Positions 16,595 through 62,118 of a stretch of DNA of 64,000 nucleotides are shown here, piece by piece; positions within the stretch are counted from its first letter, which is position 1; every line of letters begins with the position of its first letter. Source of the DNA: Terana coerulea (Eukaryota; Basidiomycota; Agaricomycetes; Polyporales; Phanerochaetaceae). The notes under the pieces are model-generated. The model ran no database searches. It saw only the letters and a program-made list of their open reading frames with translations, and was not told the DNA's origin. The DNA lies in NCBI GenBank assembly GCA_024811115.1, contig JAKOGH010000051.1, positions 62,001 through 126,000 of the forward strand, given 5' to 3'. Made by a program: the position numbers and the translations under genes.

Positions 16595-18065
16595 CAGCAA
16601 TTTAAGGCACAGGTTAGTTTCGTTCCCAGGTCCAAGAACCTGAGAAGTACTCGTCCAGGCGACCACGAAGAGGTCTGTGCCAGGACGACCAGACGTCGCC
16701 CTCCGCCAGGAATATATCTCCCTAAGCCAACAAATTCCGAGTCATCCCATCTACGCTACGTTGACGTCGTCAGCTGGTCCTAAAGCTTGGAGCTCTATGC
16801 ATTCAGAGCGGGGCCCAAAGGTCGAGAACGTCCGGGTTGCCATGTTGAGGGTCGGCCATGGGGTTTGGAATCAGCAGCCTGAGGCTGTCCAGTGCAGACT
16901 GGAGGGTAGGCTCAGGACGATGCCCGAACCTTGGGAAATCAGTGCAGCCCCTGATATGTTCCCTTGCCGTAGAGTGGACCTTGTCCATCATCTCGAAGAC
17001 AGGACGAGCGCGAGCTCTACCTCTGTCTGTTGAAGTGGGTACGAAGCCCAGTTCCTGGAGAGGCTGGACCTTGTCCCCACGCGATTTCTCGCGTGACCTC
17101 TCCTTGTCGTGAAGTGGACCTTGTCCATCATCCCGAAGACGGGGCGAGCGTGAACCCGACACCTGTCTGTTGAAGTGGGTACAGAGCCCAAATCCTGGAG
17201 AGGCTGGACCTTGTCCCCACGCGATTTCTCGCGTGACCTCTCCTTGTCGTGAAGCGGACCTTGTCCGTCATCCCGAAGACGGGGTGAGTGTTAACTCAAC
17301 CCTCATCTGGTGAAGTGGGTACAGAGCCCAAATCCTAGAGAAGCTGGACCTTGTCCCCACGAAGTTGCCTTAGTGACTTCTCTTTGTCGTGAAGTGGACC
17401 TTGTCCATCATCCCGAAGACGGGGCAAGCGCGAACGCAGCGCCCGTCTGTTGAAGTGGGTACGAAGCCCAAATCCTGGAGAGGCTGGACCTTGTCCCCAC
17501 GCGATTGCTCGCGTGACCTCTCCTTGTCGTGAAGCGGACCTTGTCCGTCATCCCGAAGACAGGGCAAGTGTAAACTTGACGCCTGCCTGGTGAAGTGGGT
17601 GCGAAGCCCAAATCCTAGAGAGGCTGGACCTTGTCCCCACGCGATTACTCGCGTGACCTCTCCTTGACGAGAACTGGGCCGAAGCCCAGCTCTCGGAGGC
17701 AGAGAGAAATTAAATAATCTCAGCTCCAACCTCGTACAGAGCCTAAACCCAGGTGATGGTCAAGAACGGCTCGGGAGGGGAAGACCCGGAAGAGTAAGCA
17801 GAAGTAGCTTACCTCGATGGCCAGCACTAGAGTTGTTTCTGGTATGGAAGGAAGATGGAGAGGGACAGGAGAACTGGGGAGTCAAGTCGAAGTAGGCCAG
17901 TCTTTATACCCGTGGAGGCTGGCGGGGTCACGCGTCTGGCCGTTTGTTTGCAGTAAACAGGCTCGATCGCGACGCGTCGTTGATAGGCGCCCATGCCTTA
18001 GGCCCGGCAGTGGCCGGTTGGTGGCCGGTGCTTCGACGTGGTGGCGTTGGCGAGTCCGGCTTCCT
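16595..18065 (-). repeat. Structured-RNA repeat block A (left outer block)
   Basis: Reverse-oriented partner of 58765-60195. Read on the minus strand: ACGCGT boxes and a TATA box (17902-17908), a pyrimidine-rich leader, five units spaced exactly 140 bp (hairpins at 17638, 17498, 17358, 17218 and 17078), then a conserved 3' stem region near 16.62-16.70 kb. Every unit has a 7-bp stem of the CACGCGA/TCGCGTG type capped by GAAA, GCAA or GTAA, an outer helix GGAGAGG/CCTCTCC or AGAGAAG/CTTCTCT, and TGGAC-AAG-GTCCA or CGGAC-AAG-GTCCG hairpins. The pairs covary between units; one of the hairpins (17358) has a single mismatch. 140 is not a multiple of three, so the short frames it contains are not a protein repeat. 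Confidence 0.8.
17902..17908 (-). promoter_or_regulatory. TATA box of repeat block A
   Basis: TATAAAG on the minus strand, in the same place relative to the units as the TATA of block A' (58930). ACGCGT motifs lie within about 80 bases upstream on that strand. Confidence 0.5.
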
Positions 18066-18149: not shown

Positions 18150-18480
18150 AAATGTTATTTAGGGGAGTTGGCAGTGCTGTCTGCTGGCAGACGACTACGT
18201 GCCAGGGAGGGCTCAAAGCTGTAAGTCACCAGAGGGCTGTTGCAGGGCGACCAGTGAAAGTCATACAAAACGGGCACCGGGGCAGCTGCTGATAATGACG
18301 GTAAACGCAAGCGTAGAGACTGAGCGGGTGCGGTATTGTATTTGGCGATGTACGGCTTTCGCAGGTTGATATTTTCGTCGAGACAAATGTTCGAGTGGAA
18401 CGCGGTCGAGAAGGTGATGATGGGGCGACCTGGCATCCCCACTATTATAAATGACAAGGTTATTGAGGAATATAATATGG
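18150..18480 (-). pseudogene. Lignin peroxidase relic (exon 3 part)
   Basis: The minus strand reads IITFSTAFHSNICLDENI and LRKPYIAKYNTAP, matching the haem-peroxidase segment [19 protein letters not shown]...[13 protein letters not shown] of the full gene at 22.1-23.5 kb. Frame is lost soon after; no start, no exon 4 in phase. Counterpart on the right arm: 53333-54440. Confidence 0.7.
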
Positions 18481-18989
18481 TGAGCTCGCTAGCCTCGACG
18501 TTGCAATAGCCACGAGCGAAGAGGCTCCGTTCGATATCCTTAGCAACGGGAACAGAGCGCGGGAAGCGGGGTTGGCGGTATGTTGTCTACCGCTGAAGCG
18601 AGTGACAATCCTCGTAATCACGCTTAGCATAAGCACGTGAAACGACTAGCTGGCAAGGAGAACAGAAGGTCTGTACGTTGCGTGACCTGAAGGACGACCA
18701 GGACGACAGAGAGTCCGGGGAGTAGCCGGGCGGGTCCGCAAGTCTACGGTAAGCCTGAAGCTGAGAGTCGTAGCGAGGATATAGATGTCATAAGAGTTGT
18801 AGAGCTGGTCGAGTACGCTTGTCGTACCTGTCGCTAAGCCTGCAGGCCGACATTTTATGGCTTACCAGGAGCAGGTGTGCGACCCCAAAATTGCCGATCG
18901 ATGCATTTTTATTTATTAATGAGCTGCGCCAGTGCTATGAAGAATACCCGAAAGTCGATGGTAAGTTTGCATATATAGCCCATAGACGA

Positions 18990-19480
18990 CGGTCACTCAC
19001 AGGTCATTGAGCTGTCTGGCGCAAATCCGCCGCGCGATCAAGTGGTTAGGCTGCAGACGCATTTCGCCAGGTAGAGGTAACTCGATTTCACTTTGGTTGC
19101 CACCTGAGCCAGGGAAAGCAGTTCCAAGGAGATGAGTCTCGACATAGAACTCGACGTCAAGTTGGCCGCGGGTCGGGTTGAAGAACAGACCCTTTTTGTT
19201 GGAACGACATCGTTGGCGGTCACAATCTGATTGCTGCGTAAATAAGATGTGAGAACGGTCAGAATGGGCGCATATAGTCAGCAAAACTCACACATAGCGC
19301 ATCCAGACGGTCTCAAACTGCCAATGTCAGTGCGAGTGGTCGTCGGGATACCATCGGGCAACCCAGTAGCGGAGCCGACAAAGAGCAGAGAGAACTTGAC
19401 TATATTTGCGCCAGCATCGTTCAGAAGCTGACATACGGTGAGTATGGGTTTCAGGCAGGGAAGTGAGAGCCACATACAGG
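18990..19480 (-). pseudogene. Lignin peroxidase relic (end of exon 3 and exon 4)
   Basis: About 19290-19460 keeps LLNDAGAN and QFETVWM (compare [17 protein letters not shown], including the Trp of the long-range electron-transfer site). About 19040-19220 keeps [18 protein letters not shown] and [16 protein letters not shown] of exon 4. Stops and frame changes interrupt it. Mirror-image counterpart at 52.5-53.1 kb. Confidence 0.7.
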
Positions 19481-20399
19481 TATTTCGAGCTCTTAGTCAC
19501 GTCATCCATAACATTGGAATGGGATGATTGCGGCACACTTCTTCTGAGGAGCAAACAAATTTCAAGAGGAAGTTGACCAGAAAAGTGAGGGCATAACATA
19601 CCTCTCCCATTGATGTAGAAGTCGAAATAGCCGAAATTCAGTTGGGCTTGTAGGCCGGTCACTGAGGGCCTAATGTGATATTGCTGCTTGAAGGTATTCC
19701 CAGGAGCTCTCATTCGTCTCGTTATCAATACGCTTTCCCCGTCATTCCGGCTGCTACTGATGTAAGCCTTCGACGACCAATTCAGCAGCGAAGCACTCTA
19801 CTCACCCTTTTCTTTCAGCTTTGCTCTCCGACGTACAGCACGATTGCACATGCATAAGTGCGTCGACAGCAGCACTGCGCTAACCGACCATCCGTCGCTC
19901 TGTCTTCTCCGTACGCCGAAGCTCTCACGCGCGACATATCATCCCTCAGAACCGGCCGGTCGACAGGGTGAGTGTAAAGTTCGTCATGGCGCGTCCACCC
20001 GCAATTTCTGAGGTTTCATTGTTCCAGGAAAGCGGGGTAAGGTTGACGGCGTTCGTGGTAATACCAAGTGGCGTGTACAGAAGTCGAGCAGCGGTTTCAC
20101 GCTGAGCCTTGGCTAGGTACGGGAGGTCGGATCTGACTGCACTAAAAGCTGCGTCCGAGACAGAGGACGTCTTCATCACATATGCGCACCGACACGAGCA
20201 TGCTACCGTTCGCAGTACGAGAACGGGTCGTGGTAGAGGAGCAGTGTCGTGGTGGTAAGCGGCAAGATATAATGAGCGCCGACGAATCTGTTGCAGTGAC
20301 CAAGTACTAAGCGCACATGCCCAGATCTCAGACCTCGCACGCGGAAAGAAAACGTCAGGAAAATAATGAAATATATTATCCCCGAGCGCATATACACAC
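19481..20399. other. Degenerate sequence shared with the right arm
   Basis: Mirrors 51.73-52.5 kb (for example the stretch around 20.05-20.17 kb against 51.97-52.07 kb). No intact gene. The minus frame near 19946-20179 has no peroxidase motif and no recognised family. Confidence 0.5.
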
Positions 20400-21800
20400 T
20401 AACTTAAGGCACAGGTTAGTTTCGTTCTCAGGCCCTAAGACCTGAGAGTTACTCGTCCTGACGACCGCGAAGAGGTCTGTGCCAGGACGACAAGATGCCG
20501 CCCTTCCGTCAGGAATACATCTGCCCCGATCAACATGAACAGCCCATCCACTCCTCTACACCATCCATCTCCGGCGCCCAAGACATTGAAGATTAGTTGA
20601 TTGAGGCCCTTGTCCGAGTGTCGAGGATTGATCGCGCGCGTGTGCCGAGACCAGGAGGGCTTGACCCCGGCGGACCCGGGACGATGCCCGAGCCCTGAGA
20701 AGGTAGGTGCGACCCCGCGCCCGAAGGCAACCTTCCCTTGCCGTACAGCAAATGTTGCTCGTACTCTGAGACGGTGCGAGCATACACTCGACGCTTGCCT
20801 GTTGATGTGGGTACAGAGCCCAACATCCTGGAGAGGCTGGACGTTGTCCCGGTCACGATTGCTCGGACCACCTCTCCTTGTCGTAGAGCGGACTACGTCC
20901 ATGCTCCCGATGACGGTGCGGGCTCGCGCCCTAAGTCCACCTTTGAAGTGAGCATGAAGCTCAAATCGCGGCAGGGTCATAATTATCCTCGTCGTAGTGA
21001 CTCGGACGACCCCTCCTTGCCAGGGAGGTGAAAAGCTTCACCTCCCCGAGAGGCAGAGCGTGCCACCGGCGCAAACCACGACACCTGCTCTGGATGGGGA
21101 ACAAACCTAACACCGTCGATGCTAGGCAGTTCCCCGAGACAGGGCGGGCTACAAGCGCAGGGCTCAACAGCTGCTTTTGAAGTGGGTACTGAGCCCAACA
21201 TCCTGAAGAGGCCGGAAATCTCCCGGACACTCTTCTTGTCAAAGGGCTGAACATTTACAGCGCTCTGGGAGGCAGCTCGAGCCACGAGTGCGGGCTCAGA
21301 GCTGCCTTTTGAAGTGGGTACTGAGCCCAACATTCTGAAGGGGCTGGAAAGTTTCCCAGACACCCTTCTTGTCGAGACCTTGGGTCCGGCCAGCGAACCC
21401 AAGGTCTCGCAGGTGGAGCAAGACTAGGCTTTACTCCAGCCTGGCAACGAGACCGGCCTGGGAGGAAAGTGAGTAAAGAAAACTAGAGGAGTAGATGAAA
21501 TGCGCGCACGGCGAGCTCAGGCTCCAGTACTGGGAGGAGGAGATGGGGGATAGAAGGAAGGGGGATGAGGAAATACGGTCGAGGTGGGCAGGCTCTTATA
21601 CCTTTGGGGCTGACGAGTCACGCGTGAGTCTGTTTAGTCGCAGTCAACGGCCTCGATCGCGACGCGTGACGCGTCAACTGCACGCGTCGTGTCAAAGCGC
21701 CCGTCCGGTATCTGCCGGTGGTTCGACTTTGTGGCGTTCCCTGGATCTGGCGATTTTTGGCGCTTCATCTTCGACGCGTCCAGCTCCCTCTCACGCTGCA
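20400..21800 (-). repeat. Structured-RNA repeat block B (left inner block)
   Basis: Follows the 3' end of the full lignin peroxidase gene on the minus strand and mirrors 50330-51725. It has several ACGCGT boxes, TATAAGAG (21593-21600), a pyrimidine-rich leader and diverged units of the same fold as block A. Examples on the minus strand are GAAGGG/CCCTTC enclosing CTGG..CCAG, GAAGAG/CTCTTC enclosing CCGG..CCGG, and GGAGAGG/CCTCTCC enclosing a GGTCCGA-GCAA-TCGTGACC hairpin. Each is followed by AGGATNTTGGGCT..GTACCCAC. The 3' end has the stems TCTCAGG/CCTGAGA and GTCCTG/CAGGAC in common with block A. Confidence 0.75.
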
Positions 21801-22139
21801 AGCCCTTATTCTCTGCAGTTTGAGATCTATGAGATAATAGTCACATTTGCTACAAATAAATCGCCAGAAAGTTCTTTGTCTGAACACGGTGAGAAATTTC
21901 GCAACTTCATACATTGTTCAAGTCATGTACTTACGCACTGGTCAGACTGTATCAAGTATCTTTCACAAGTAGAGGAGCCTGTAGACAGGAAGAGTGTTTG
22001 CCACTACGAAAAAATGCCGAACATGAACGTCAAGCTAAACAGCTACGATGGGCAGCGCATAGTATATATATAAACCTACGACCGTACAGTGTAACCAAAG
22101 ACCAACCAAACAGCTCAGAGACACAACTCCAGCAGCTAC
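21801..22139. other. 3' flank of lignin peroxidase copy 1
   Basis: Shared with 49971-50329 in the right arm (ACTGTACGGTCGTAGG, CTTGATACAGTC). Presumably peroxidase 3' untranslated region and spacer. Confidence 0.5.
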
Positions 22140-23539
<1,400 letters not shown>

Positions 23540-23610
23540 GGTCGTCCTGGGAGCTGGAGCTGTAGAGGAGAGACGAACGTCCTGAGGGTTGTAGAGCCCC
23601 TCGAGCTCAT

Positions 23611-23618
23611 CTTTTATA
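23611..23618 (-). promoter_or_regulatory. TATA box of lignin peroxidase copy 1
   Basis: TATAAAAG 72 bases upstream of the ATG; the same box and leader are present in front of copy 2 (48504-48511). Confidence 0.65.
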
Positions 23619-23639
23619 CCTCTCACCGCGCTCTCGACA

Positions 23640-26600
23640 GCGAATCACCATCGAGTCTGTTCATAGACTATGTCTGAGCGAAATGACCAGCCCTGATTGG
23701 TCGGCACCGTACCAATGTCAAGCGTGCCCGTCACATCGACGGTGGTAGTAGAGGAACGGGGCAACGGTTATATGTTCGATGACCTGCGAGAGTATAGAAT
23801 GTCGTCCAAAACACGGGTGTTCATTGACTGGCTTTCACGGGTGGGAGACTCCATAGCCTGAATGCGAGCGAGTGCGGGCCCTAGGCTGAGATCCCTGCCC
23901 ACTGGCACGGTGTGCCGAACTGCCGACGAGGCTGTCTCCCGCGTGCGCAGAAATCCAGCACCTATTTACGCTCATGTCAAGGTGGCTCTCATGTTGAATG
24001 GAGTGACATACCACAGACATGGCACATCATGTGCAAATCCTCCTCAAATCGGAATCCGAGCTACGGCGGCGCTCATGTCCCAAGAAAGAGCCCGGCCAAT
24101 GCGAGATACTATCCACCGATACCTTGGATCATCAGTCTGTCTATCCAGTGAACCTGAGCGCCGCTGTGAGAGTCGCTTCATGGCGGTCGGCGACACTGTA
24201 GGAGACATACGACACGGACAAAGATGAGCTTGAGTGCCACATTCATGGCAAGGCAGTGGCGTACGAGGTGCGTGCGCTTCACTAACATGCATCTATATGA
24301 TATTCAACAGATGAAACCACCCAGCCACTGTCGATTGGTGCAGCTGAGCCCGCTTTCGAGTGCTGAACTGGGAGTCATGCTCTCGACCCTCGGTGCCGTG
24401 CATCCCTTCTTCGTCCATACAAGAGTCTGCCGATGTGTGTTTCCGATTTTAGACGTTCTCTGATTGGGCGAATGCGTCATGGTATAGAGTTGAGCGCTTC
24501 GCTGTGGTGTGCAGAATGCCCGGTGAAGGATACCCCAACGCATCCGAGGAGTCTATTTTTATGTCGGATTCGCACATGCGATCGGAGGCAGTGACTGTGC
24601 ACTCACGATGCAGGGAATGTGCAGACATCTGGATTCTGACATCCGCACGGAGAGCTGTACTCGGCCTATGTTCGGGTCTGGATTAGATGGTTATGTTGTC
24701 GACACGAAAGCCCGCGACTCACCAATTGCATCTCACAGAAAATTCGCTCTGTGCCGTCTCAGGATGTCCTTTCCATCGTTTTCACGTAGTCCACGCAAGA
24801 CCATTCTCACATACTACGACCGTTCTCACATGCTACTGGCTGTCTTGAATAGGCGGGGAGTGTCGAAGAAGCCGGCTTCCTATTCTGAACTCATCCCTGC
24901 ATAAAAGGTCATGAGCATGACCAGGGTGAACATAGAGCTTATGTCGCTGACAGAAATCGTGTGTAGTACACGTCCGCCTCCGTACCATCGGGCCCTTCGT
25001 TGGGGTCCCATGTGGCCCACCACTCAGTCGGTCTGCGTGGCTAGCATTGGCTTCACACATGCGCTTCGTATGCCTTCGTAAAGCAGTCTAAGATAAGAAT
25101 AGAACACATAATCAGACAAACTCACCGTAATCTGTGTTCAAGGGAGCAGCGACACTGCCTACGCAGTAGCTATCGTCCCAAGCCATATCACCACACGTCA
25201 CGGCGGACCTCAGATATCAGGGAGAATTGGCAAAAACTCTAGCGAGGCTTGCTTCAGTGTGTCTCACCGGTCACCTGTTTCAACATTAGATCAGAATCTT
25301 GACACCCAAGGCAGCGCATCACGGCACCTCTTCACCGAGCGCAAAATCGGTATGTCCAACTTGCTAAAGAATCCTCGTCTTGCTTGCATATGCTTGAGAG
25401 CCGAGCGGCTCAAGATACATGTATAGTTTTCGTTAATCAGCGAAACCGCGTTATACTCGCCTAGTGGCCGAAGTGAATTCAAATTCATCCAAAGAAGGCA
25501 AAGCAGCCGACATACAGGTCATCGTCCGTCATATCTCAGCGCCGGCTTGAACATACCCAACCTCTAAGGCGGTACAATATCGCTGCTTGATGCCGGTACA
25601 GGTGGTCTCCCTCCTCACACACTCGCCTAAGGCCGTCAATGAGACGGCGTAGACCGAGTCGTCGAAGTTAGGCTGGCAGGGCAGGAGACGGGGAACACAG
25701 CGGATACAGCGAGGGGGCGCACAGAATCATGGTATGTGCGCATGTGGGAGGGAGGGCAGAACGTGATCGCTCCAGTTAGAGGTGGCAAGAAGGTCGATGG
25801 ACGTTCTGGTCAAGTTTACCAAGCGCTCAAGCGAGCGGGGTCCAACGCTTTGATGACGGATCAAACGCCACAAAGCCTCACGGGGCCAAAGGCGCCCGTG
25901 GACTCGGAAACTCGAGGTGAGCCTCAGCGCATATACGACGGACTGTGCCGTCCGTACTTATCAGCATGCGGTAGGAAAATAATCTTTAGCTCTATATACT
26001 GAAGACATGTATTTATTACTGCACTTCTTAACTAAGGAGAGCACTTTTGGTGATAATTACTTACTTCAATAAATACGCCAGGAAAATGAATGGCCAATTC
26101 AGCGCGTCAGCGTAAGAATAATGAAGCTGTCACTTTAATGCATTATAGCCCACTAAAAGAAGAATTTAATTTATTTGTTCCCACACCACCGTATATACAA
26201 GCTCGGAACTAGTCACCGCGTGAAGTACTAGTGCTGCGGAAACGCTAGAAGCAATGGAACGTCTACCAAAGTAGCTAGATACATATAAGCAACGGCTCAT
26301 AGTTCTTACTAGGATGGCACTTCTGAAGATTTTCTTCCAACGAACTCTTTTGTCGGAGAATGTGTCGTTTGCCGTGGGGTACACGCCAGCCACATAGTTT
26401 AAGCCGCACGATAACATCGAGCACTTTACTCAAGTAAACTACTGCTTGAACAGTGAGCATGCAAGAAGCGAAGCATTGATGCTGCTCACGTCACATCACC
26501 GTCCTCAATACAGAGGGACCATGGTCCTGTACATCAATGTCAACGACGCCGCGGTGAGCTACGCTTAGTAAATTCACGGATCGTGTGTTGCTTTGGGCCA

Positions 26601-28030: not shown

Positions 28031-28056
28031 ATGTCCCCCTCGGGGTGACATACGAA

Positions 28057-28087
<31 letters not shown>

Positions 28088-28152
28088 GGCCCCTGCACAA
28101 GGATGACACGCTTTCCCGGAGTGGTGGACCTACGGGTCTCAATATTTATTTT
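28031..28152 (+). ncRNA. U6 spliceosomal snRNA
   Basis: The invariant core is present: AATTGGAACGATACAGAGAA with the ACAGAGA box, then the ATTAGCATGGCCCCTGC segment with the AGC triad and CAAGGATGACACG. A 5' hairpin GTCCCC/GGGG(T)GAC opens the RNA, and a T run (28149-28152) can terminate Pol III. The 3' part after GATGACACGC differs from the usual animal sequence: it has a GACC-TACG-GGTC hairpin with a UNCG-type loop (28127-28138). No intron is seen within the core. A TATA box is not obvious in the GC-rich upstream sequence. Confidence 0.92.
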
Positions 28153-47150: not shown

Positions 47151-48500
47151 ATCAGTCTTCAAGACTACAGCCTACACACGGTTTTGGAAGCATCAGAGGG
47201 AGCTTTGAATGACCGACTGTCGTTGCACAGGTGCGCTTGTACCCTCTCGGACGTTCAGATGAAAATTGGATCTGATATACCAATAGACCACTGCCCAAGG
47301 ATCGTCTCTGTGGGGATTGGAAGAGAAGCCATCGGTTTTATCCATGATCTACGCTGTACCTGTACCGAACCCCGCAAGCCGCTGCGGCACGAGCTGAGGC
47401 TCATGCAGAATACGGTTAGGAAGATGAAAACTTTTGAATGGTCCTTACAGCCGTGCACCGCGGGACCGAGAGGGCTTGCTAGAGAGCGCTAGAAAAACGT
47501 GGTAGAGGTTTCAACAACGTGAGTGCACAACCACCGGATCCCGATCCCTTGTGTGAATCTCTCATAAATGGGCTAAAAATAGACTCGCCGGATGCTCTGA
47601 AGATGCACTTACCGGAGGGCGCGCATATCTGCAAAGGGGTTAGTATTGAATGGTCGAGTGGATGAGATGACGTTTTCAATAAAGAAGGTGTGTACTGAAC
47701 AGATAACGAATTCCAAACCTCGCTTATTTTTGGAGGAAGCGCGTATGAGTGACCTTTTTCCAGTCTGCATCGTTAGTGACTTGCACTTTACCTCAGCGAA
47801 TCGGAAGCGACGCGTTTGCAGTATCCGCTGAATGCTATTGAGATATAACTTAGTGAAGCACCGACTAGGTATGTCTCCTTTTCATGATCAAGACCTCTGT
47901 CAAGCTGACCTGCGCTTGCACAGCTTGTTCAATGACCCTTCGGCATATGAGCTGAAGTGACTCACACGCCCGCGGATATGTTACACCCGTGCTGTCTGTT
48001 GAACCGACACATTGGGTGTCGGTAATGCCTCCTTGGCCCTCGTCTACGGTAGGAGCCGCACGTCCCTGGCCATGGCTAATTTTAGGGCTGTTCAGCCCAT
48101 AGCCCACAATGGCTCTGGTGCGTCGCGAGGTTTCTTATGGGAGTAATGCTGACGGGGCCAAGGTCAGAAGCTCAACCTCCGAGCTTTTTCGGTCAGGAAA
48201 TAGCCCATCATCGCTCCAGGCTCTGTGAGTACAAACCTGATCTTCGGGTCCGTACTCACAGCCATGTTACAGCCCATCCCTCTCTGACAAGGGAGTCAAT
48301 GAGTGAACATGTTTTGACGGCTTTCCTCACCCCTGGCACTGACCAGCGCAATAGCCACTGTACCGTTTCTCCACTTCTGCCGTCTAAGTGGGAGATGCAC
48401 TTACTCTCGGCAGGTCGCAAGCCAATGGTGGCTACTTATATGTCAAAGAGCCTGAGCGTTGCACTCAATTTCCCTGATTCGCTGTCGGGAGCTCGTCGAA
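47151..48500. other. No supported gene; promoter side of peroxidase copy 2
   Basis: Last part of the non-duplicated core. Short frames only. Similarity to the left arm becomes visible from about 48.5 kb. Confidence 0.4.
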
Positions 48501-48503
48501 AGA

Positions 48504-48511
48504 TATAAAAG
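48504..48511 (+). promoter_or_regulatory. TATA box of lignin peroxidase copy 2
   Basis: TATAAAAG 79 bases before the ATG; leader sequence GGCTCTACAAC..CTCAGGAC is shared with copy 1. Confidence 0.65.
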
Positions 48512-48582
48512 GTGTTCTCGAATGGCTCTACAACACTCAGGACATCTGTCTCTCCTCTAGAGCTCCAAGCTTCAGGACGACC

Positions 48583-49970
<1,388 letters not shown>

Positions 49971-50329
49971 GTAGCTGCTGAAGTTGTGTGTGTCTGCGCT
50001 GTCTGGTTGATGTTTGGTTACACTGTACGGTCGTAGGCTTATATATGCATATATATGCGAGCTGCCGATGGCAGCTGTTTGTCTTGGCATTCGTGTCTGG
50101 CGTTTTTGTATAGCGGCGAACATTCTTCATGTCGACAGACTCCTCTACCTGCCAAAAATACTTGATACAGTCCGACTAGTAAGTACTGGCATAACTTGAG
50201 CAATGTATGATACGAAGTTTCTCACCGTGTTCAGATCTGAAAAGTTTGCTGGCGTATGACTTGAGGTAATTGCTTTTCCCCCTCACCAATCTCAAAACAC
50301 AAAGAATAAGTGCCTGCAGTACTGCGAGA
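49971..50329. other. 3' flank of lignin peroxidase copy 2
   Basis: Shared with 21801-22139 in inverted orientation; presumably 3' untranslated region and spacer before block B'. Confidence 0.5.
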
Positions 50330-51725
50330 GGGAGCTGAAAGTGTCGAAGATGAAGCGCTAAGAATCGCCTAATGCAGGGAACGCCACAAAGTCGAACAGC
50401 CGGAGGATGCCGGACGGGCGCTTTGACACCAACGCGTGCGGCTGACGCGTCACGCGTCGCGATAGAGGCCGTTGACTGTGACTAAACAGACTCACGCGTG
50501 ACTCGTCAGCCCCAAAGGTATAAGAGCCTGCCCACCTCGATCGTATTTCCTCATCCCCCTTCCTTCTATCCCCCATCTCCTCCTCCCAATACTGGAGCCT
50601 GAGCTCGCCGTGCGCGCATTTCATCTACTCCTCTAGTTTTCTTTACTCACTTTGCTCCCAGGCCGGTCTCGTTGCCAGGCTGGAGTAAAGCCTAGTCTTA
50701 CTCCACCTGCGAGACCTTGGGTTCGCTGGCCGGACCCAAGGTCTCGACAAGAAGGGTGTCTGGGAAACTTTCCAGCCCCTTCAGGATGTTGGGCTCAGTA
50801 CCCACTTCAAAAGGCAGCTCTGAGCCCACACTCGTGGCTCGAACTGCCTCCCAGAGGGCTGGAAACGTTCAGCCCTTTGACAAGAAGAGCGTCCGGGAGA
50901 TTTCCGGCCTCTTCAGGATGTTGGGCTCAGTTCCCACTTCAAAAGCAGCTGTTGAGCCCTGCGCTTGTAGCCCGCCCTGACTCGGGGAACTGCCTAGCAT
51001 CGACGGTGTTAGGTTTGTTCCCCATCCAGAGCAGGTGTCGTGGTTTGCGCCGGTGGCCCACTCTGCCTCTCGGGGAGGTGAAGCTTTTCACCTCCCTGGC
51101 AAGGAGGGGTCGTCCGAGTCACTACGACGAGGATAATTATGACCCTGCCGCGATTTGAGCTTCATGCTCACTTCAAAAGGTGGACTTAGGGCGCGAGCCC
51201 GCACCGTCACCGGGAGCATGGACGTAGTCCGCTCTACGACAAGGAGAGGTGGTCCGAGTAATCGTGACCGGGACAACGTCCAGCCTCTCCAGGATGTTGG
51301 GCTCTGTACCCACATCAACAGGCAAGCGTCGAGTGTATGCTCGCACCGTCTCAGAGTACGAGCAACATTTGCTGTACGGCAAGGGAAGGTTGCCTTTGGG
51401 CGCGGGGTCGCACCTACCTTCTCAAGACTCGGGCACCGTCCCGGGTCTGGGTCAAGACCTCCTGGTCTTGATTCACGCACACGGACAATCCTCGACACTC
51501 GGACAAGGGCCTCAATCAACTAATCTTCAATATCTTGGGCACCGGAGATGGATGGTGTAGAGGAGTGGATGGGCTGTTCATGTTGATCGGGGCAGATGTA
51601 TTCCTGACGGAGGGGCGACATCTTGTCGTCCTGGCACAGACCTCTTCGCGGTCGTCAGGACGAGTAACTCTCAGGTCTTAGGGCCTGAGAACGAAACTAA
51701 CCTGTGCCTTAAGTTAGTGTGTATA
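50330..51725 (+). repeat. Structured-RNA repeat block B' (right inner block)
   Basis: Plus-strand mirror of 20400-21800. Four ACGCGT boxes (50432, 50445, 50452, 50494) precede TATAAGAG (50519-50526), then a pyrimidine-rich leader and diverged structured units at about 50745-50830, 50875-50950 and 51235-51320. Outer helices differ but stay paired: GAAGGG/CCCTTC, GAAGAG/CTCTTC, GGAGAGG/CCTCTCC. The third unit has GGTCCGA-GTAA-TCGTGACC (GNRA loop, one bulged T) and GGAC-AAC-GTCC. The end carries GTCCTG/CAGGAC around GACC/GGTC and then TCTCAGG/CCTGAGA. Confidence 0.78.
50519..50526 (+). promoter_or_regulatory. TATA box of repeat block B'
   Basis: TATAAGAG downstream of four ACGCGT motifs (the core of MluI cell-cycle boxes bound by MBF in yeasts). 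Same arrangement in block B. Confidence 0.5.
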
Positions 51726-52479
51726 TGCGCTCAGAGATAATATATTTCACTATTTATCTGACCTTGTCTTTCTGCGCGTGAGGTCTGAGATCTGGGCATG
51801 TGCGCTTAGCGCTTGATTACTGCAGCCGATGCGTCGGCGCTCGTTATATCTTGCCGCTTACCACCACCACCACATCACTCCTTCTGACGACCCGTGCTCG
51901 TACTAAGGCCACTAGTAATGTGCTGGCGCTCATATGGAATGAAGTCATCTTTGGTTTAGGATGCCGGCTTGCAGTACAGTCCCATCCGACCTCCCGCACC
52001 CAGCCAAGGCTCACCGTGAAACCGCTGCTCGAGCTGTACACGCTACTTAGTGCTACCACGAGCACCGCCAATCTTGCTTCGCTTCGCTGGGACACAGAAA
52101 ATACCAAGATGTGCTTGGGGCCACGCGACAAGACGAACTGTGCGCCGTGTTGATTGGTTCTGGAGGATAATATGCCGCGTTTCGAGGGCTTCGGCGTACG
52201 AAGACAGAGTGAAGGGCGATGGGTTGGAGCAGTGTTACTCTAGAGTCACTTGCGTACATGCAACCATGCTGTACTTTGGAGAGCAAGGCTGGAAGAAAAG
52301 GGTGAGTACAACGGTTCACTGCTGGTTTGGCTAGGCTCACATGAGTACTAGCCGTCGAAATCAAGGGAAGGTGCATTAATAACGGGATAAATGGGAGCTA
52401 CTGTGCATACTATCAAGCAGTACGCTTGTATTAAGCCCTCGGCGCACGACCTTATAAGTTCCACTTCGATGCTGGAGGT
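51726..52479. other. Degenerate sequence shared with the left arm
   Basis: Mirrors roughly 19.6-20.4 kb. No intact frame or recognised motif. Confidence 0.45.
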
Positions 52480-53090
52480 ATGTCATACCGTCACTTGTCT
52501 GGCCGACTTCTTCTTAACATTTGGTTGACCTGGAAAGATGTACTTCAAGTTGGCAATCATTCCAACGCGATGTCGGCGGAAGACGTGATTAAGAGCCCAA
52601 AAATCTGTCCGTGGTACTCAGTTTCCTGCGCAAAACCCAAGCTCACCGTTTGTCCACTTACGAATGATTCTGGCGCAAATATAGCCAAATTATCTCTGGC
52701 CTCCTACCGAATCCGTTGCCGGGTCGCCTGATATGATCCTGTCGGCTACTTGCCCCAACAGCCCCGGCATTTTTAGACTGTCTGGATGCGCCAAGTGTAT
52801 GTTTATTGGTTATATGCGCTCTTTCCAACCGTTCTAACAGCTCATCTGTGCAGCGACTTGAACGTAGCCGGCAGCAATGTCGGTCAGATGAAGAAGGGTC
52901 TGTACGCAACTCGATTCCTGGCTAGTTCAGCATCCAGTTCTTTGTCGAGACTCAGCTTTCCGGCGCTGCTTTCCCTGACTCGGGTGGTGACCAGGGCGAA
53001 ATCAAGTAACCTCTGCCTGGCGAGAAGCAATCGTAGCTCGGTCGCTTGATACCACCAGCAAACCGGACCTCCTGTGAGTGACCTTCGTCT
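52480..53090 (+). pseudogene. Lignin peroxidase relic (end of exon 3 and exon 4)
   Basis: TVWMRQV near 52770 and, across frame changes, KKGLY then FVETQLSGAAFPDSGG..QGEI-like codons at 52890-53010 match exons 3 and 4 of the full gene. Counterpart of 18990-19480. Confidence 0.65.
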
Positions 53091-53332
53091 ATGGCTTACC
53101 TACACAAGCTTACCGTCGATTTTTGGGTGATATTTATAGCACGGCGTAGCTCGTCCACAAAAATGCGGCAATCGACAGAATTGGGGTTGCCTATCCGCTC
53201 CTGGTGAGCCGTAGAATGTTGTCCTCACACCTCCAGCAATATTAAGTGGAGTTCGGCGACAGGTGTAACAAACTTACTTGACTAGCGTGACCAGTCTTGA
53301 TACTCTCTATAGTTTCCGCTTTTAGGAAACGC

Positions 53333-54440
53333 ATGGACTTCGCTCAGCTTCGCGCTGTACTCTCCGTCACAATGATTGCCCTTCATGTCACGCAAAGTAC
53401 GCACCTTCTTTTCTCCCTGCTGGCTAGTGCATTGACGAGTGTATGCTAAGCACGATTACTGGGCGTCTTGCTTGCCTCAGCGGTAGAAAACTGCTGCTAG
53501 CGCTGCTCGCTGCCCTCTGTTCCTGTCGTTGAGGATGTTGATCAAAACCTCTTCGCCGGCGGTCAGTGCAACTCCGAGGCCCGCGAGTTCACCTGTCTCA
53601 TCCTCAATACCATTGCTGTGTCTCGCATAATGGGGCCCCAAGTCGTTCGATCATCACCTTCCACACCATCTCGACTGCGTTCCATTTGAGTATGCGTCTC
53701 GACGAGAATCTCCATCCACAGGAACCATACCTCGCCAAGCACACCGTCTCACTCGTGAACTTCATTGTGCTTGCAGGTGCTGTCGCCGTCAGCAATTGCC
53801 CTGGTCATGCAACGTTTCACTGGTCACACAGTCATGGCCGGACTGCTGCCCAACGCCGTGTCCCTCTGGTAATCCACGCAGTCGGCCAGAGTCTCGCTCG
53901 TACGAACGATGTCAGCCAACTCTACGATTTCAAGACCGTACATGTGCGCTATGCGTGAGTTTTGCTCGCTGTATGCGCTCTTCCGTCTCATCCTCAGATT
54001 TTGTCTACGTAGCCATTCGATCACGGCTGCGACCGACGATGACCCGATGAACATCAGTCTTCATTCAGCTTGACTCCCGGACTGTTCGAGGCTCAGCTCT
54101 TTGCTGAGAGTCGGAATGCAATGCACGTCTTGCGAGTGGCGGTGATTCATGGACAACACCGACACACAGGAGTGACTTTCAGCCCGTCCTCACGCTGTAG
54201 ATGCAGCTCGATCACGACCTGGATAGAATAGTCGCCTGTTTTGAGGAAAATCCAGTGCCCAATCTCCGGAGGTTCGCGCCTGCTTTCCTTCCAGCTGACG
54301 GAACCTACAAGGACACGAGCCGGCGGCGAGTATCCATCTTCCTTGAAAATCATCTACTACTTGCCGTACACACATTCACATCCTGTCACTGTCCTTACAT
54401 CTATTCCCTTCCTGTCGCTCACTGCTGTCCCCGGTTCATA
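53333..54440 (+). pseudogene. Lignin peroxidase relic (exons 1-5 recognisable)
   Basis: Begins MDFAQLRAVLSV.. in place of the signal peptide and keeps a splice donor after TQ. It then has [15 protein letters not shown], a deletion around the distal-His helix, [38 protein letters not shown] with NCPGHA, LARTNDVSQLYDFKTV, HSITAATDDDP and FAPAFLPADGTYKD. The distal FHDA segment is missing, and stops and frame changes are frequent, so this is a true pseudogene rather than an assembly problem. Confidence 0.8.
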
Positions 54441-56834: not shown

Positions 56835-58082
56835 CTATGAATGGGATTCAATCTCGTTAGCCACATGTCCCATGGAACAATGCACACGACACGCACACGA
56901 CGGGCCGTCTCGACAGGTCTGGGAACAGACTCCGGCGGCAAGAATTGAAAGCGCACCTAACGCAAAGCGATTAGTACTGCGAACCGAGAACCAATAGCGG
57001 GACATCTCGCTCACAGTGTCGACCGCACGTCCGATCTCCTCTTGCAAGAGACGGGAAAGGTCTAGCAATTCGAGGGATATAGCGGGCTTCAGCTGAAGAC
57101 AAGGCAGGCAGTCGACTCCCGCGCCCTGCACAAAGGTTCGGACCACCTCCCTCCAGTCGCACATCGGGTGGGCGCGCACATGGGTTTCTGCGGCGTCCAG
57201 AAACTTGGCGAGCCACGGCGCAGCGTGGTACCTCTTGCCCGTGCGGATCTCAATCTCCAGCGGTGGAGGGCCCGTCTCCTTGTGAGCGGGACACCGGAAC
57301 AGCGAGGAGGCGTCGGCGAAATGGGACGTGATGGCGGGTATCTTGAGAGCTCCGCCTGTGTCCTGGCGTCTGAATGTCTGGACCGCAGCGTCGGTTGCGT
57401 CCACCCGCCAGTGCTGAAGGCAGTGCATGTCGTAGTCGTCGAGGTCGCACTTGCGAAGCTCGGAGTCGGCGCAGACCGGCCGCCTCAAGGTCTCAATCGC
57501 CGCCTGCTCCGCGAGGACGGTACACCCCTTACTGCACGCCGTCTTGTACAGCGCGATTGCATCTGTCTCGGTTGAATCGGAGTAGCGAGTGTACACGGCG
57601 CGCAGCTTCTTGATAGAGAGCAATTCCAGTAGTTTGAGTGCGTCGATGAGCTGGTTCGACGTTCTGATGGTGGGATAGGAAAAATACGGGTCGAGGACGG
57701 CGAAGACGGCTCTAAGGCACGTCGAGTCCTGCTCTACGGGATAGACGGGAAGGTCGTCAATGAATTCGGCTGGCTCTTGTAACTTGCGCTTCCTGGTGTC
57801 CTCTAGAGAATGTTCGATGCCAAAGAGGCTTGCAAACCATGGCGATGTTTTTCTGAGTGAGCCTTGGTGCACGTAGAAGAGCTCTCCTTCGGCCGAGCGC
57901 AGAATAGCATCATGCTCAGAATGTACGTGATGGGACCGCATAGGAGCGGGTTTCGCTTGACTGGTAGAAGCCGATGCGCCCTTGTGGCGGAAAGTGACCC
58001 GGAGATCTGAGTGGGCTTCAACATCGGCGTCTTCGCGCCGAGGTCTTTTCGCCTTCTTCAGAGGTGGAAGGGATTCAGCCAT
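56835..58082 (-). CDS. BTB/POZ-domain protein 2
   Basis: Open frame of 415 residues from the ATG at 58082. A basic nuclear-signal-like start (MAESLPPLKKAKRPRREDAD) precedes the BTB-like part: HDAILRSAEGELFYVHQGSL, RKTSPWFASLF, DDLPVYPVEQDSTCLRAVFA, then IDALKLLELLSIKKLRAVYT. The second half has Cys/His-containing stretches (DYDMHCLQHW, FRCPAHKE, CLPCLQLK) and ends LDLSRLLQEEIGRAVDTV. It is a diverged paralogue of the plus-strand BTB gene and convergent with it. A donor GTGAGC directly after AVDT suggests an intron at the same site as in gene 1; in that case the last exon changes and runs past 56835, so the C-terminus is uncertain. Confidence 0.8.
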   Translation of the reverse strand: MAESLPPLKKAKRPRREDADVEAHSDLRVTFRHKGASASTSQAKPAPMRSHHVHSEHDAILRSAEGELFYVHQGSLRKTSPWFASLFGIEHSLEDTRKRKLQEPAEFIDDLPVYPVEQDSTCLRAVFAVLDPYFSYPTIRTSNQLIDALKLLELLSIKKLRAVYTRYSDSTETDAIALYKTACSKGCTVLAEQAAIETLRRPVCADSELRKCDLDDYDMHCLQHWRVDATDAAVQTFRRQDTGGALKIPAITSHFADASSLFRCPAHKETGPPPLEIEIRTGKRYHAAPWLAKFLDAAETHVRAHPMCDWREVVRTFVQGAGVDCLPCLQLKPAISLELLDLSRLLQEEIGRAVDTVSEMSRYWFSVRSTNRFALGALSILAAGVCSQTCRDGPSCACRVHCSMGHVANEIESHS

Positions 58083-58764
58083 CTTGAAGGAGAATGTTGA
58101 AGGAAAAAGTAACGGATGCGACTCGGAGTTAGTCGAGTAAGATTTGCTAACACGAGAAGTTGAGAGCATTTCACAAGGCTCGGACGGGGGTAACAGTACC
58201 TTCAACCGACAATGCTCATATGAGTGGAGAAACACGGCAGCTTCGAGTTCAATCAAGAAAGGAGGAATAAGAGGTCAGGGAGGCGCAGAGAGAAAGGAGG
58301 TTGGGGGACGCGGCGGCAGTGAGGAAGGGTAGAAAGAGAGCGACGAGTCCAACAGACGGACGAACATGGCGGTCCTCGACGGCGCTTGACAGCTGGGGGC
58401 TGCCGAAAAGGTTGCGATGACGTGGACATCACTGGCGCATACCTGCCCAGCCCTCTACTTAGACATTGAGAGTGCGGGGGTTCGATTCCTGCGAGAGACG
58501 TACCTTGCCACCGTAATACTCGTTCATACTGCACACGCCCCGGCTCAAGGGCCTGTTGAGCGCAGCTGCAGGCTTCTCTCCAGACTGCGATGTTGGTCGT
58601 GCTCGCGTGCTAACGTCCGGTGCTGTCGCCATATCGCACTGTCGCGGCCAAAGACCGCCAGCGGTCACAGAAATGTGGGCGAATCACGGCCATTCTGCAG
58701 GAGGACTCCGGAGAGCGGCAAGAGGAGAGGACGGAGGTACACTCGATTAGTGAAGGTAGCCAGA
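58083..58764. other. Promoter of BTB gene 2 and spacer
   Basis: No gene recognised. A short T-arm-like stretch near 58475-58492 is not part of a tRNA. Confidence 0.45.
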
Positions 58765-60195
58765 TTCGTCAACGCCACCACGTCGAAGCACCGGACATTG
58801 CCGGGCCAGGAGGTCTGAGGCCCGAGGCCCGAGGCTTGGGCGCCTGTTTACGACGCGCCGACGCGTCGCGATCGAGCCTGTTTACTGCAAACAAACGGCC
58901 AGACACGTGACTCTGCCAGCCTCTACGGGTATAAAGACTGGTCCGCTTCGACTTGACTTCCCCAGCTCCCCAGCTCCCCTTTCCTTCCTCGTTCATCTCA
59001 GAGACAACACCAGTACTGGTAGGCTACTTCCACTGGCTATTCCTCCCTTTTGTTGTTGACTATCACCCGGGTTTAGGCTCAGTACGAGGCTGGAGCTGAA
59101 ATTAATTTCTCTCCACCTTCGAGAGCTGGGTTTTGCCCCAGTTCCTCGACAAAGAGAGGTCACGCGAGCAATCGCGTGGGGACAAGGTCCAGCCTTTCTA
59201 GGATTTGGGCTTCGTACCCACTTCAACAGACGGGCGTCGGGCTCGCGCTCGCCCCGTCTTCGGGATGATGGACAAGGTCCACTTCACGACAAGGAGAGGT
59301 CATGCGAGCAATCGCATGGGGACAAGGTCCAGCCTCTCCAGGATTTGGGCTTCGTACCCACTTCACCAGATGAGGGCCGAGTTAACACTCGCTCCGTCTT
59401 CGGGATGACGGACAAGGTCCGCTTCACGACAAGGAGAGGTCACGCGAGTAATCGCGTGGGGACAAGGTCCAGCCTCTCTAGGATTTGGGCTCTGTACCCA
59501 CTTCAACAGACAGGTGTCGGGTTCACGCTCGCCCCGTCTTCGGGATGATGGACAAGGTCCACTTCACGACAAAGAGAAGTCACGAAGGCAACTTCGTGGG
59601 GACAAGGTCCAGCTTCTCTAGGATTTGGGCTCTGTACCCACTTCACCAGATGAGGGTTGAGTTAACACTCACCCCGTCTTCGGGATGACGGACAAGGTCC
59701 GCTTCACGACAAGGAGAGGTCACGCGAGAAATCGCGTGGGGACAAGGTCCAGCCTCTCCAGGAACTGGGCTTCGTACCCACTTCAACAGACAGAGGTCGA
59801 GCTCGCGCTCGTCCTGTCTTCGAGATGATGGACAAGGTCCACTCTACGGCAAGGGAACATATCAGGGGCTGCACTGATTTCCCAAGGTTCGGGCATCGTC
59901 CCGAGTCTACCCTCCAGTTTTACGCTGGACGTTCCGATGGATATATATTGGATAACACCCACGGCCGACCCTCCACATGGCAACATTGACATCTTCGACC
60001 TTCGAGGCCGGCTCCTACAAGCTTCAAAACCGACTCACGACGTAGACACAACGAGTTTATTGGCTGGAGTAGATATATTCCTGGCGGAGGGCGACGTCTG
60101 GTCGTCCTGGCACAGACCTTTTCGTGGTCGGCAGGATGAGTACTTCTCGGGTTTGAATCCTGAGAACGAAACCAACTTGTGCCTAAATACCCTGT
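58765..60195 (+). repeat. Structured-RNA repeat block A' (right outer block)
   Basis: Plus-strand mirror of 16595-18065. An ACGCGT box (58861) and TATAAAG (58930-58936) lead into a pyrimidine-rich leader, then units of exactly 140 bp: GNRA hairpins start at 59161, 59301, 59441, 59581 and 59721. Stems and loops: CACGCGA-GCAA-TCGCGTG, CATGCGA-GCAA-TCGCATG, CACGCGA-GTAA-TCGCGTG, CACGAAG-GCAA-CTTCGTG, CACGCGA-GAAA-TCGCGTG. Outer helices AGAGAGG/CCTTTCT, GGAGAGG/CCTCTCC and AGAGAAG/CTTCTCT enclose them together with GGAC-AAG-GTCC. A TGGG/CCCA hairpin and a conserved CCCACTTCA follow. The 3' end has GTCCTG/CAGGAT around GACC/GGTC and a TCTCGGG/CCTGAGA stem. No conserved reading frame. Confidence 0.82.
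58930..58936 (+). promoter_or_regulatory. TATA box of repeat block A'
   Basis: TATAAAG about 70 bases after an ACGCGTCGCGATCGA palindrome-rich stretch and about 230 bases before the first structured unit. Confidence 0.5.
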
Positions 60196-62118
60196 TGTAA
60201 GCGTACAAGTAATACAGTCAATATACCGCGTTTTCTCATGCTTTTGTTGGCACTTGCCTGTTCTGACTGAAGTCTCGAGCAGCCTCATAGTTGCGAGTGG
60301 AAGGAAGCTGAGGTATGTACTCCATTCGTCGTGGAAGCCGCGCGAAATTGACATTCACTACCAAGCGAGAACAATGTCAGCGGAGATCCCGTCCTGCAAT
60401 CCCACCTGGCAACTGAAGGCGGCATCGCTTTCGTCTCGTGCACAATGCGTAGTGAGACGGACTGCCAATATGGTAGTTCATATGAAACCGCTTGTATTCG
60501 AGTGTGTGCATACATGTTGATCGCAAGTGGTAAACATCGTGCACGAGCATGTGGTCGCTGGCGTAGTCACAGATACGGCCCGGAAGTCAATAAGCACAAG
60601 CTTTGGTGCGGCTTCGCGTTCACCTATTCGCGCATCCTGGAGCATTGATCAACACGTCTCAACATGATACAGCGCACAGCCAATTTACGCACAGGGGAGC
60701 CATCGAAACAGCCATATTGCCTATCACTCCTTCCTTCAAATCCCGTGCACGCTGACTCTGAGGCTGACTATCACTGTCGGCAAGCATCGCGGCTTGGTCT
60801 ATCCTTGTTCACAGCTATGGTACACATTAATGGATCATGGCAGCTAACAGCAGCGTTACACGGCTCACCATTCCAAATCACACAGAAGCAGCTAGAGGTC
60901 TACATAGCATTGCACGACGTGGACCACGGGAGATTTGTTTCGCCCGGTGAGAAGATACTGCCAAGTTATCCACCTAGCTGCATCAATGGACTACTCGAGC
61001 GAAACGGAGCCGCGAGTGCGAAGCATCCTGGTCGGCAGAGCGCGAAGAAGACGCCTTATGTGGTGGTGATTTCACCTCTCCCCATCGTGCGCTCGAGTGA
61101 AGCCATGACTGGGTGTAGCATCGCCGCTTTCAGGTACATCGTCTCCGTCCTCTAAGTTCAGACAAGCCGGTTCGACCAATCGGCCCATGCATAGTAGCCC
61201 TTCCGCGCGCGGCGCTACATAGTCCAGATCTGCAGATATCGTTCAGTAGGAACAAACCACAAGATCAATCACACGACGCACTTCCAGATGTCCGATATCC
61301 ACTGTCAAAGCCTACGTGCCTGATCGTCCACGAAACTTCGAAGTCGCGGTCTGGCCGTACGATGTAAGCGTTCTTTCCGGTTTGCCCTCTGCCTTGTTCG
61401 CGCAACTTCTGAGGGTTCTTTTTGAGCCTTGGAAGGAGGGATAGTCTCCTGCCGCACGGAGAAGAACATAGCGCGGTGAGTGTGCTGCAGTAAGTCGCGA
61501 AAGTCAAAGCAATCACCATGTAAAACACTTAGTTAAGCCCGGGAATGATATTCACATAAGGATGGGCCGTGATGTGAAACAATGCCTATTGTGCATGCCC
61601 ATGATATGCGCAGTCGATAGCAGCTGGAAAGAGATATCGAACGTTGTGCAGGACGAGACTGAGGTCAGAGTTGGCGTGCATATAGAAGTACTGGGGGCAT
61701 AGGTCCATCTACTTGTTTCACTTCGCATCGATACCGCCGCTCTTCCGACTTAGATAGCCTTGCATCATACTCCCGAGATGCGCTGTTAGCATCGTCGTGT
61801 CAGGACTAGAGTTTCTCCTCAGGGGAAGTCAAAATGTAGCCCGAGCACATAAAATAGTGTACTCACTATTACTGTCTAATTGCACGACCTGATGACATAT
61901 TCACCTCACCATTGTAGCCCGAGTCTGTCTGCATTTGAGGCGATCGATGGCAGTATACAAACCTTGCATTAAACCTAGATCATAGTGTAGCATCTGTAGA
62001 TAGTACGGCTCGATTAAACGCTATTAGTTACTCCTCGTCACTTTGGTCACCCAGGAACGCCATGATGCTTTGCCGCGCGCTTCCGACCTACGAATAACGT
62101 TAGTGCAAATACACAGAC
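60196..62118. other. Gene-poor stretch
   Basis: Begins at the outer end of the right arm. A 163-residue plus-strand frame at 60664-61155 has no domain, no splice partner and unconvincing composition; I do not call it. Nothing else is recognised. Confidence 0.45.

Follow-up and report, generated by a model that had tools for sequence, protein, structure and literature searches.

What kind of gene, if any, produces a tandem array whose bases change from unit to unit while their pairing is kept? The question is raised by 140-bp repeats in a 64,000-nucleotide stretch of the Terana coerulea genome (the window; all coordinates without a contig or locus name refer to it), which an earlier note made from the letters alone had read as RNA-forming.

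Structure of the repeat array

The array has a period of 140 and 5.1 copies at 59147-59854 (Tandem Repeats Finder), and its five unit starts are spaced by exactly 140 (Table 1). The exact 140-bp register of five units described in the earlier note is thus borne out over 59148-59847, and the helices that it quoted are present in the units. A protein-coding tandem repeat was rejected. As the note had argued, 140 is not a multiple of three, and open reading frames that begin with a start codon stay short inside the array, reaching 67 aa at most on the forward strand. The longest stop-free stretch through part of the array, 162 codons, counts against a non-coding reading. A second array lies inverted in the window at 16962-17677 (Tandem Repeats Finder) and is 92% identical to the first over 579 bases. 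Single or diverged 140-nt units also occur in two further genes of the window (gD, gE) and in three elsewhere in the genome (gC, gF, gG).

Table 1 Features of the ribozyme-terminated repeat loci in the window (ribozymes and cuts are predicted).
Feature	Position	Strand	Evidence and remarks
TATA box of gA, GGGTATAAAGACTGG	58930..58935	+	same context in gB (17908, -); gC by eye
Possible 58-nt leader intron, GTAGGC..TTTAG	59019..59076	+	by eye, weak
140-nt structured unit 1	59148..59287	+	Tandem Repeats Finder, unit alignment, covariation
140-nt structured unit 2	59288..59427	+	Tandem Repeats Finder, unit alignment, covariation
140-nt structured unit 3	59428..59567	+	Tandem Repeats Finder, unit alignment, covariation
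140-nt structured unit 4, CACGAAG/CTTCGTG variant	59568..59707	+	Tandem Repeats Finder, unit alignment, covariation
140-nt structured unit 5	59708..59847	+	Tandem Repeats Finder, unit alignment, covariation
Closing domain, GGCAAGGGAA..TTTCCC and CGGGCATCGTCCCG hairpins	59848..59937	+	by eye
HDV-like ribozyme module of gA, predicted cut 60079/60080	60070..60183	+	covariation, covariance model
AT-rich stretch, presumed 3' end region, GC 0.37	60184..60243	+	base composition
gB, paralogue	16606..17913	-	TATA 17908; five 140-nt units 17668-16969; module 16720-16606, predicted cut 16711/16710
gD, diverged paralogue	50519..51708	+	TATAAG 50519; modules 50746-51377; predicted ribozyme 51593-51708, predicted cut 51602/51603
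gE, diverged paralogue	20408..21600	-	TATAAG 21600; modules 21373-20743; predicted ribozyme 20523-20408, predicted cut 20514/20513

Covariation was assessed in 15 units, 14 of them distinct, from seven paralogous genes, with 1000 shuffles as a control; one gap column of the alignment was shifted by hand in 11 rows (A/B/C). Three elements of each unit meet in a three-way junction: the outer helix, the GNRA-capped hairpin and an AAG-loop hairpin. Next come a TGGG..CCCA hairpin, which is fixed, then the inner hairpin and a second hairpin with an AAG loop. Among the 14 distinct units, the outer helix is 100% paired with five cells changed on both sides, and the 7-bp GNRA hairpin is 99% paired with all seven pairs covarying (19 cells), including changes from C-G to G-C; none of the 1000 shuffles was as good in either case. 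The second AAG-loop hairpin (TGGAC/GTCCA) is 95.7% paired with ten cells changed (0/1000 shuffles). The same level of pairing is seen in the inner hairpin at columns 93-106 (95.7%, 4/1000 shuffles), where three cells changed (7/1000), while the outer part of stem C around it does no better than shuffles (661/1000) in this set. The first AAG-loop hairpin (GGAC-AAG-GTCC) and the TGGG..CCCA hairpin are invariant across all units and hence uninformative on covariation. Because the shuffles ignore relatedness and gene conversion, the cell counts overstate the number of independent changes.

The earlier observation that pairing is kept despite base changes therefore extends to 14 distinct units from seven genes. 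The accompanying claim that all loops are GNRA tetraloops holds for the 7-bp hairpin, whose loop is GCAA, GTAA or GAAA in 15/15 units, but not elsewhere, the other loops being AAG, AAC, TAAC, TCGC or a 7-nt loop. Nor is the unit a three-helix RNA, as each contains more than three helices. Two further genes, gH and gI (contigs C177 and C164), carry a related module with, by eye, apparently a single hairpin on the junction.

Strand and known RNA families

Compared with dinucleotide shuffles, three units fold more favourably on the forward strand (z -3.90, -3.96 and -2.97), and the same three also beat shuffles on the reverse strand (z -2.76, -3.09 and -2.92), so that folding energy does not settle the strand. 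G.U pairs outnumber A.C mismatches by 24 to 3 in the 140-nt units and by 45 to 11 in a module found 3' of the array, an excess that favours RNA from the forward strand. The earlier claim to this effect gains support from these counts, from a TATA box upstream and from the downstream module on the same strand; on these grounds we have fair confidence that the gene would be transcribed from the forward strand. The note had also placed the array outside the described RNA families and proposed a search of Rfam, which agrees with it in giving no family match for the array: over 58.5-60.5 kb there is a single match at chance level (E 8.1). Our data thus support the array as a structured RNA of the forward strand outside any described family. 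The only match above the gathering threshold in the whole window is a U6 snRNA gene at 28033-28149 (85.5 bits), which at 117 nt against a 105-position model contains a small insertion.

Organization of the gene

The array makes up the body of what appears to be a non-coding RNA gene, gA. Downstream of a TATA box at 58930 come a leader, the five units, a closing domain, the 114-nt module and finally an AT-rich tail. At the site equivalent to the putative leader intron, the paralogue gB has GTAAGC and gC has no GT. A counterpart of the closing domain is recognizable by eye 3' of the last unit in gA to gI. Across 28 distinct module copies, the 100 nt that precede the module have a GC content of 0.55, the module itself 0.59 and the next 70 nt 0.36, with a still lowish 0.46 at 300-400 nt; the fall directly after the module is what a nearby 3' end would give. 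Homology between gA and gB spans approximately 58754 to 60187 and ends there, with little in common beyond the gene.

Upstream of gA, the reverse strand contains a 473-aa open frame (56835-58256) that belongs to no Pfam family; of 8000 candidates scored against it, none is a homologue at E 0.001. The diverged paralogues gD and gE lie in an inverted segmental duplication of ~5.3 kb with 82% identity (48475-53738 and 18342-23647), which also holds a gene for a class II peroxidase (22343-23170 by Pfam), of a kind suggestive of a white-rot basidiomycete. A peroxidase-linked regulator was considered and rejected, since only 3 of the 37 peroxidase matches in the genome lie within ~6 kb of the modules listed.

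A predicted HDV-like ribozyme at the 3' end

A relaxed regular expression recovered 22 distinct copies of the module, compared with five for a stricter earlier one. In these 22 copies a structure with a pseudoknot is paired in 96.3% of 679 cells; changes on both sides affect 12 of the 31 pairs, in 66 cells altogether, and the covariation score of 0.318 exceeds the 0.209 of shuffles (0/500 reach the observed value). Sliding the strands by 1-3 columns lowers pairing to 38-49%. One of five measures, the number of further standard pair types, falls below shuffles (27 versus 30.5). P4 is paired in 91.8% of cells, with changes on both sides at five of its nine pairs.

A covariance model added distant copies from among the collected loci, giving 28 distinct sequences of 42 matches after duplicates and the partial copy L051 were dropped. 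These served for a test of the HDV layout, for which the P1/P3 register was chosen after viewing the distant copies. The order of elements, P1, extra hairpin, P2, P3, P3', P1', P4, P4', P2', is HDV-like with an insertion in J1/2. P1 comprises 7 bp, formed in 25-28 of the 28 copies and with C-G at its foot in 28/28. The P2 pseudoknot pairs form in 26-28 of 28, four of the six with changes on both sides, and P3 is paired in every copy. L3 contains a U in 28/28 and a G in 27/28 with four bases between them, as far apart as the HDV signature pair, described as U23/G28 of the antigenomic ribozyme (PMC3386971). Loop E of P4 reads AGUA in 27/28 and GAA in 28/28 copies, and the flanking pair 78-103 forms in just 9/28. 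HDV-like ribozymes have a J4/2 consensus of the catalytic C followed by N-R-A; here J4/2 is C-N-A-A in 28/28. With P3 read as 3 bp, a single extra G stands between P2 and P3 in all 28 copies.

Further positions were counted in the 100 listed of the 130 core matches in the genome. The P3 pair 51-63 is A-U in 78, G-C in 14 and G-U in 8 of these and never A.C, which the search pattern permitted. Between L3 and J1/4, U56-A71 is invariant and positions 55/72 are C.C or U.U in 93/100; the control columns 55/60 and 60/72, where no contact is expected, reach 81 and 82 agreements per 100, so that relatedness accounts for much of the 55/72 agreement. A P1.1-like contact between bases 55 and 72 is only suggested, and P1.1 would not consist of two standard pairs.

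The HDV models of Rfam give no match to the module at E up to 10. The conserved layout is that of an HDV-like ribozyme of the fungal-variant type, with self-cleavage predicted. A tRNA-like or SINE origin was rejected: P4 of gA resembles a tRNA T arm by eye, but P4 varies freely among copies, and a search of the window with ARAGORN gives no tRNA.

A genome-wide family

The core pattern of the module has 130 exact matches in the 48-Mb genome, compared with none for the reversed control. A stricter pattern matches four times in the window and never in 100 shuffles of it. It also has no match in viral contigs or prokaryote genomes, sets that contain no fungi and hence serve as a specificity check only; a prokaryotic or viral origin was rejected on the same counts, within these fungus-free sets. 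In searches of the genome, the 3' end of gA matched many more places than the array did.

Of 37 loci inspected, 28 have a tandem array 5' of the module, though the loci are not independent because near-identical duplicates are included; Tandem Repeats Finder places an array upstream in 26/31 module loci. Array periods differ among loci, being 140, 124/242, 105/137, 67/68, 97 or 223 bp. Six further loci (L050 and L083-L087) include an array in L086 (Tandem Repeats Finder) and one of 15 units in L050, 14 of which were recovered by a regular expression; at one stem position of the L050 units C-G occurs in 8, A-T in 7 and a mixed pair in 0 of 15, so that a second array family follows the pattern of kept pairing. 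Of 26 array loci, 18 have a TATA box no more than 450 bp 5' of the array, a count without a chance control. The gene gC (L012 4294-5637; C42:130.3-131.6 kb) has the gA promoter and one 140-nt unit, followed by a 124/242-bp hairpin array and the module. Its make-up looks as if arrays had been exchanged between genes; gC would then be a natural array swap.

At L083-L085 the module has no tandem array upstream. Between TATA box and module, L083 contains a 184-aa open frame (1392-1946, with an upstream in-frame ATG). L085 has one that is similar but smaller (44 aa, 1648-1782), and the two have a motif in common by eye (SLDEAKRDPSIV and PLSEARKNPNIV). These frames suggest that the predicted ribozyme perhaps lies in the 3' UTR of small-protein genes at L083 and L085. 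Ten of the many open frames flanking modules were compared with Pfam, and 10/10 matched no family.

The modules also cluster. At L030 two of them lie 1.2 kb apart on opposite strands (130-257, +, and 1504-1617, -; C42 at ~26-27.5 kb). On the short contigs C608, C628, C627, C305, C713 and C714, several modules of different subfamilies recur at distances of a few kb, C608 alone having at least seven core matches among the matches listed. Close module copies have 3-kb flanks in common and belong to a larger repeated block.

Proposed mechanism and alternatives

The observed repeat, unit structure, pseudoknotted module, order of parts and genome-wide family are best explained, with good probability, by a ribozyme-terminated repeat RNA gene, the structured part of which would be set free lacking a poly(A) tail. 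RNA would be transcribed from the TATA box through leader, five folded units, closing domain and ribozyme. The ribozyme would fold as a nested pseudoknot and cut at the foot of P1, freeing the array RNA from the poly(A) tail and leaving a 2',3'-cyclic phosphate end; we have fair confidence in this predicted self-cleavage. The repeated units would then offer the same binding site many times over, on an RNA that is stable, lacks poly(A) and is probably nuclear. The identical repeated folds suggest multivalent protein binding, and ribozyme-ended transcripts tend toward nuclear retention. Both faintly point to a nuclear RNA that might serve as a protein scaffold.

Alternatively, the loci may be non-autonomous mobile elements whose ribozyme aids their spread, the arrays being selfish baggage. 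The 130 core matches would fit such elements, as would a 2.7-kb query from L087 that has the module alone in common with 35 of 41 matched stretches (four other places match over most of its length), and HDV-like ribozymes are described as often lying upstream of reverse transcriptases (PMC3774820). The nearest pair of reverse transcriptase and module is nevertheless 6.3 kb apart (among 150 of 249 candidates scored and 100 of 130 modules listed), the close copies compared are mostly homologous into their flanks as in segmental duplication, with gA/gB as an exception, and the compensatory changes imply selection on the RNA bodies; we regard mobile elements as an unlikely account, if one to be taken seriously. 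It is rather improbable, too, that the module is HDV-like but non-cutting, a stabilizing or protein-binding knot of an ordinary polyadenylated lncRNA. It departs from a standard HDV ribozyme in the contact between J1/4 and L3, in the loop-E flank and in the Rfam score, but the cleavage-linked positions (C-G foot, U and G of L3, C-N-A-A of J4/2) are intact in 27-28 of the 28 copies, diverged as these are.

A small-RNA precursor would account for the tandem hairpins in several array families. The stems of the 140-nt unit, at 4-7 bp, are short for a Dicer substrate, and conservation covers junctions and loops in addition to stems, which makes such a precursor very unlikely. That the inverted repeats act as DNA, as binding or recombination sites, is scarcely credible: GGACAAGGTCC and similar sites are near-palindromic, but the G.U excess noted above (24:3 and 45:11), GNRA loops in 15/15 units, the pseudoknot of the module and the constant order of parts downstream of a TATA box all argue against it.

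A wider interpretation of the ribozyme-terminated genes is more tentative, and we hold it with somewhat less than even confidence: they would constitute a new class of RNA gene, with about a hundred or more loci, swappable folded arrays, a TATA promoter and a terminal HDV-like ribozyme, supplying a pool of poly(A)-less architectural RNAs. As part of the same tentative whole, array types would be traded between genes like protein domains, and the RNAs might possibly be ligated into circles through their cyclic phosphate.

To our knowledge, self-cleaving ribozymes are scattered across genomes and the job of most is unknown. In T. coerulea a single ribozyme fold keeps to one place, the 3' end, at many loci, and what these loci visibly produce is mainly repeated RNA structure, so that the roles of ribozyme and repeats are both testable in one fungus. 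Confirmation of the predicted cut would make these loci a new kind of RNA gene. Large multi-domain structured RNAs are best known in bacteria; if the wider interpretation is true, they would make up a big eukaryotic gene family. The literature searched, mostly outside subscription journals, held no description of ribozyme-terminated repeat RNA genes in basidiomycetes.

Comparison with known systems

In the proposed role of their tandem RNA repeats as protein-binding modules, the T. coerulea genes resemble repeat lncRNAs of the Xist type as described in PMC8786293. The T. coerulea arrays bear no sequence relation to these RNAs. We know of no Xist-type lncRNA with a terminal ribozyme.

Retrozymes, as described in PMC9695139, likewise do not code for protein and combine a promoter with a self-cleaving ribozyme, the latter predicted in our case. 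They carry hammerheads in two LTRs and circularize, whereas each T. coerulea gene has one HDV-like module and no LTR that came to notice. With R2-type HDV-like ribozymes (as described in PMC3774820) the module has in common the double pseudoknot, a short L3 and a long, variable J1/2. R2-type ribozymes form the 5' end of a reverse-transcriptase element; in contrast, the T. coerulea module ends its unit, and there is no reverse transcriptase nearby among those scored.

In layout, the module also matches the fungal HDV variants. A screen for structured RNAs in fungi used Ascomycota only, by its description (PMC8216456). As described in PMC5640933, 230 representatives of the fungal variants come from 26 species, two were shown to cleave, and they were likewise missed by earlier HDV criteria, from which they differ by a C-G foot of P1, a loop E and an extra base. 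Unlike these variants, the T. coerulea module has an extra hairpin in J1/2, its extra base is G rather than mostly C, and it stands behind tandem folded arrays at many loci, genes of a kind that the main text of PMC5640933 does not describe. Like them, it combines a C-G foot of P1, a loop E in P4 and an extra base between P2 and P3.
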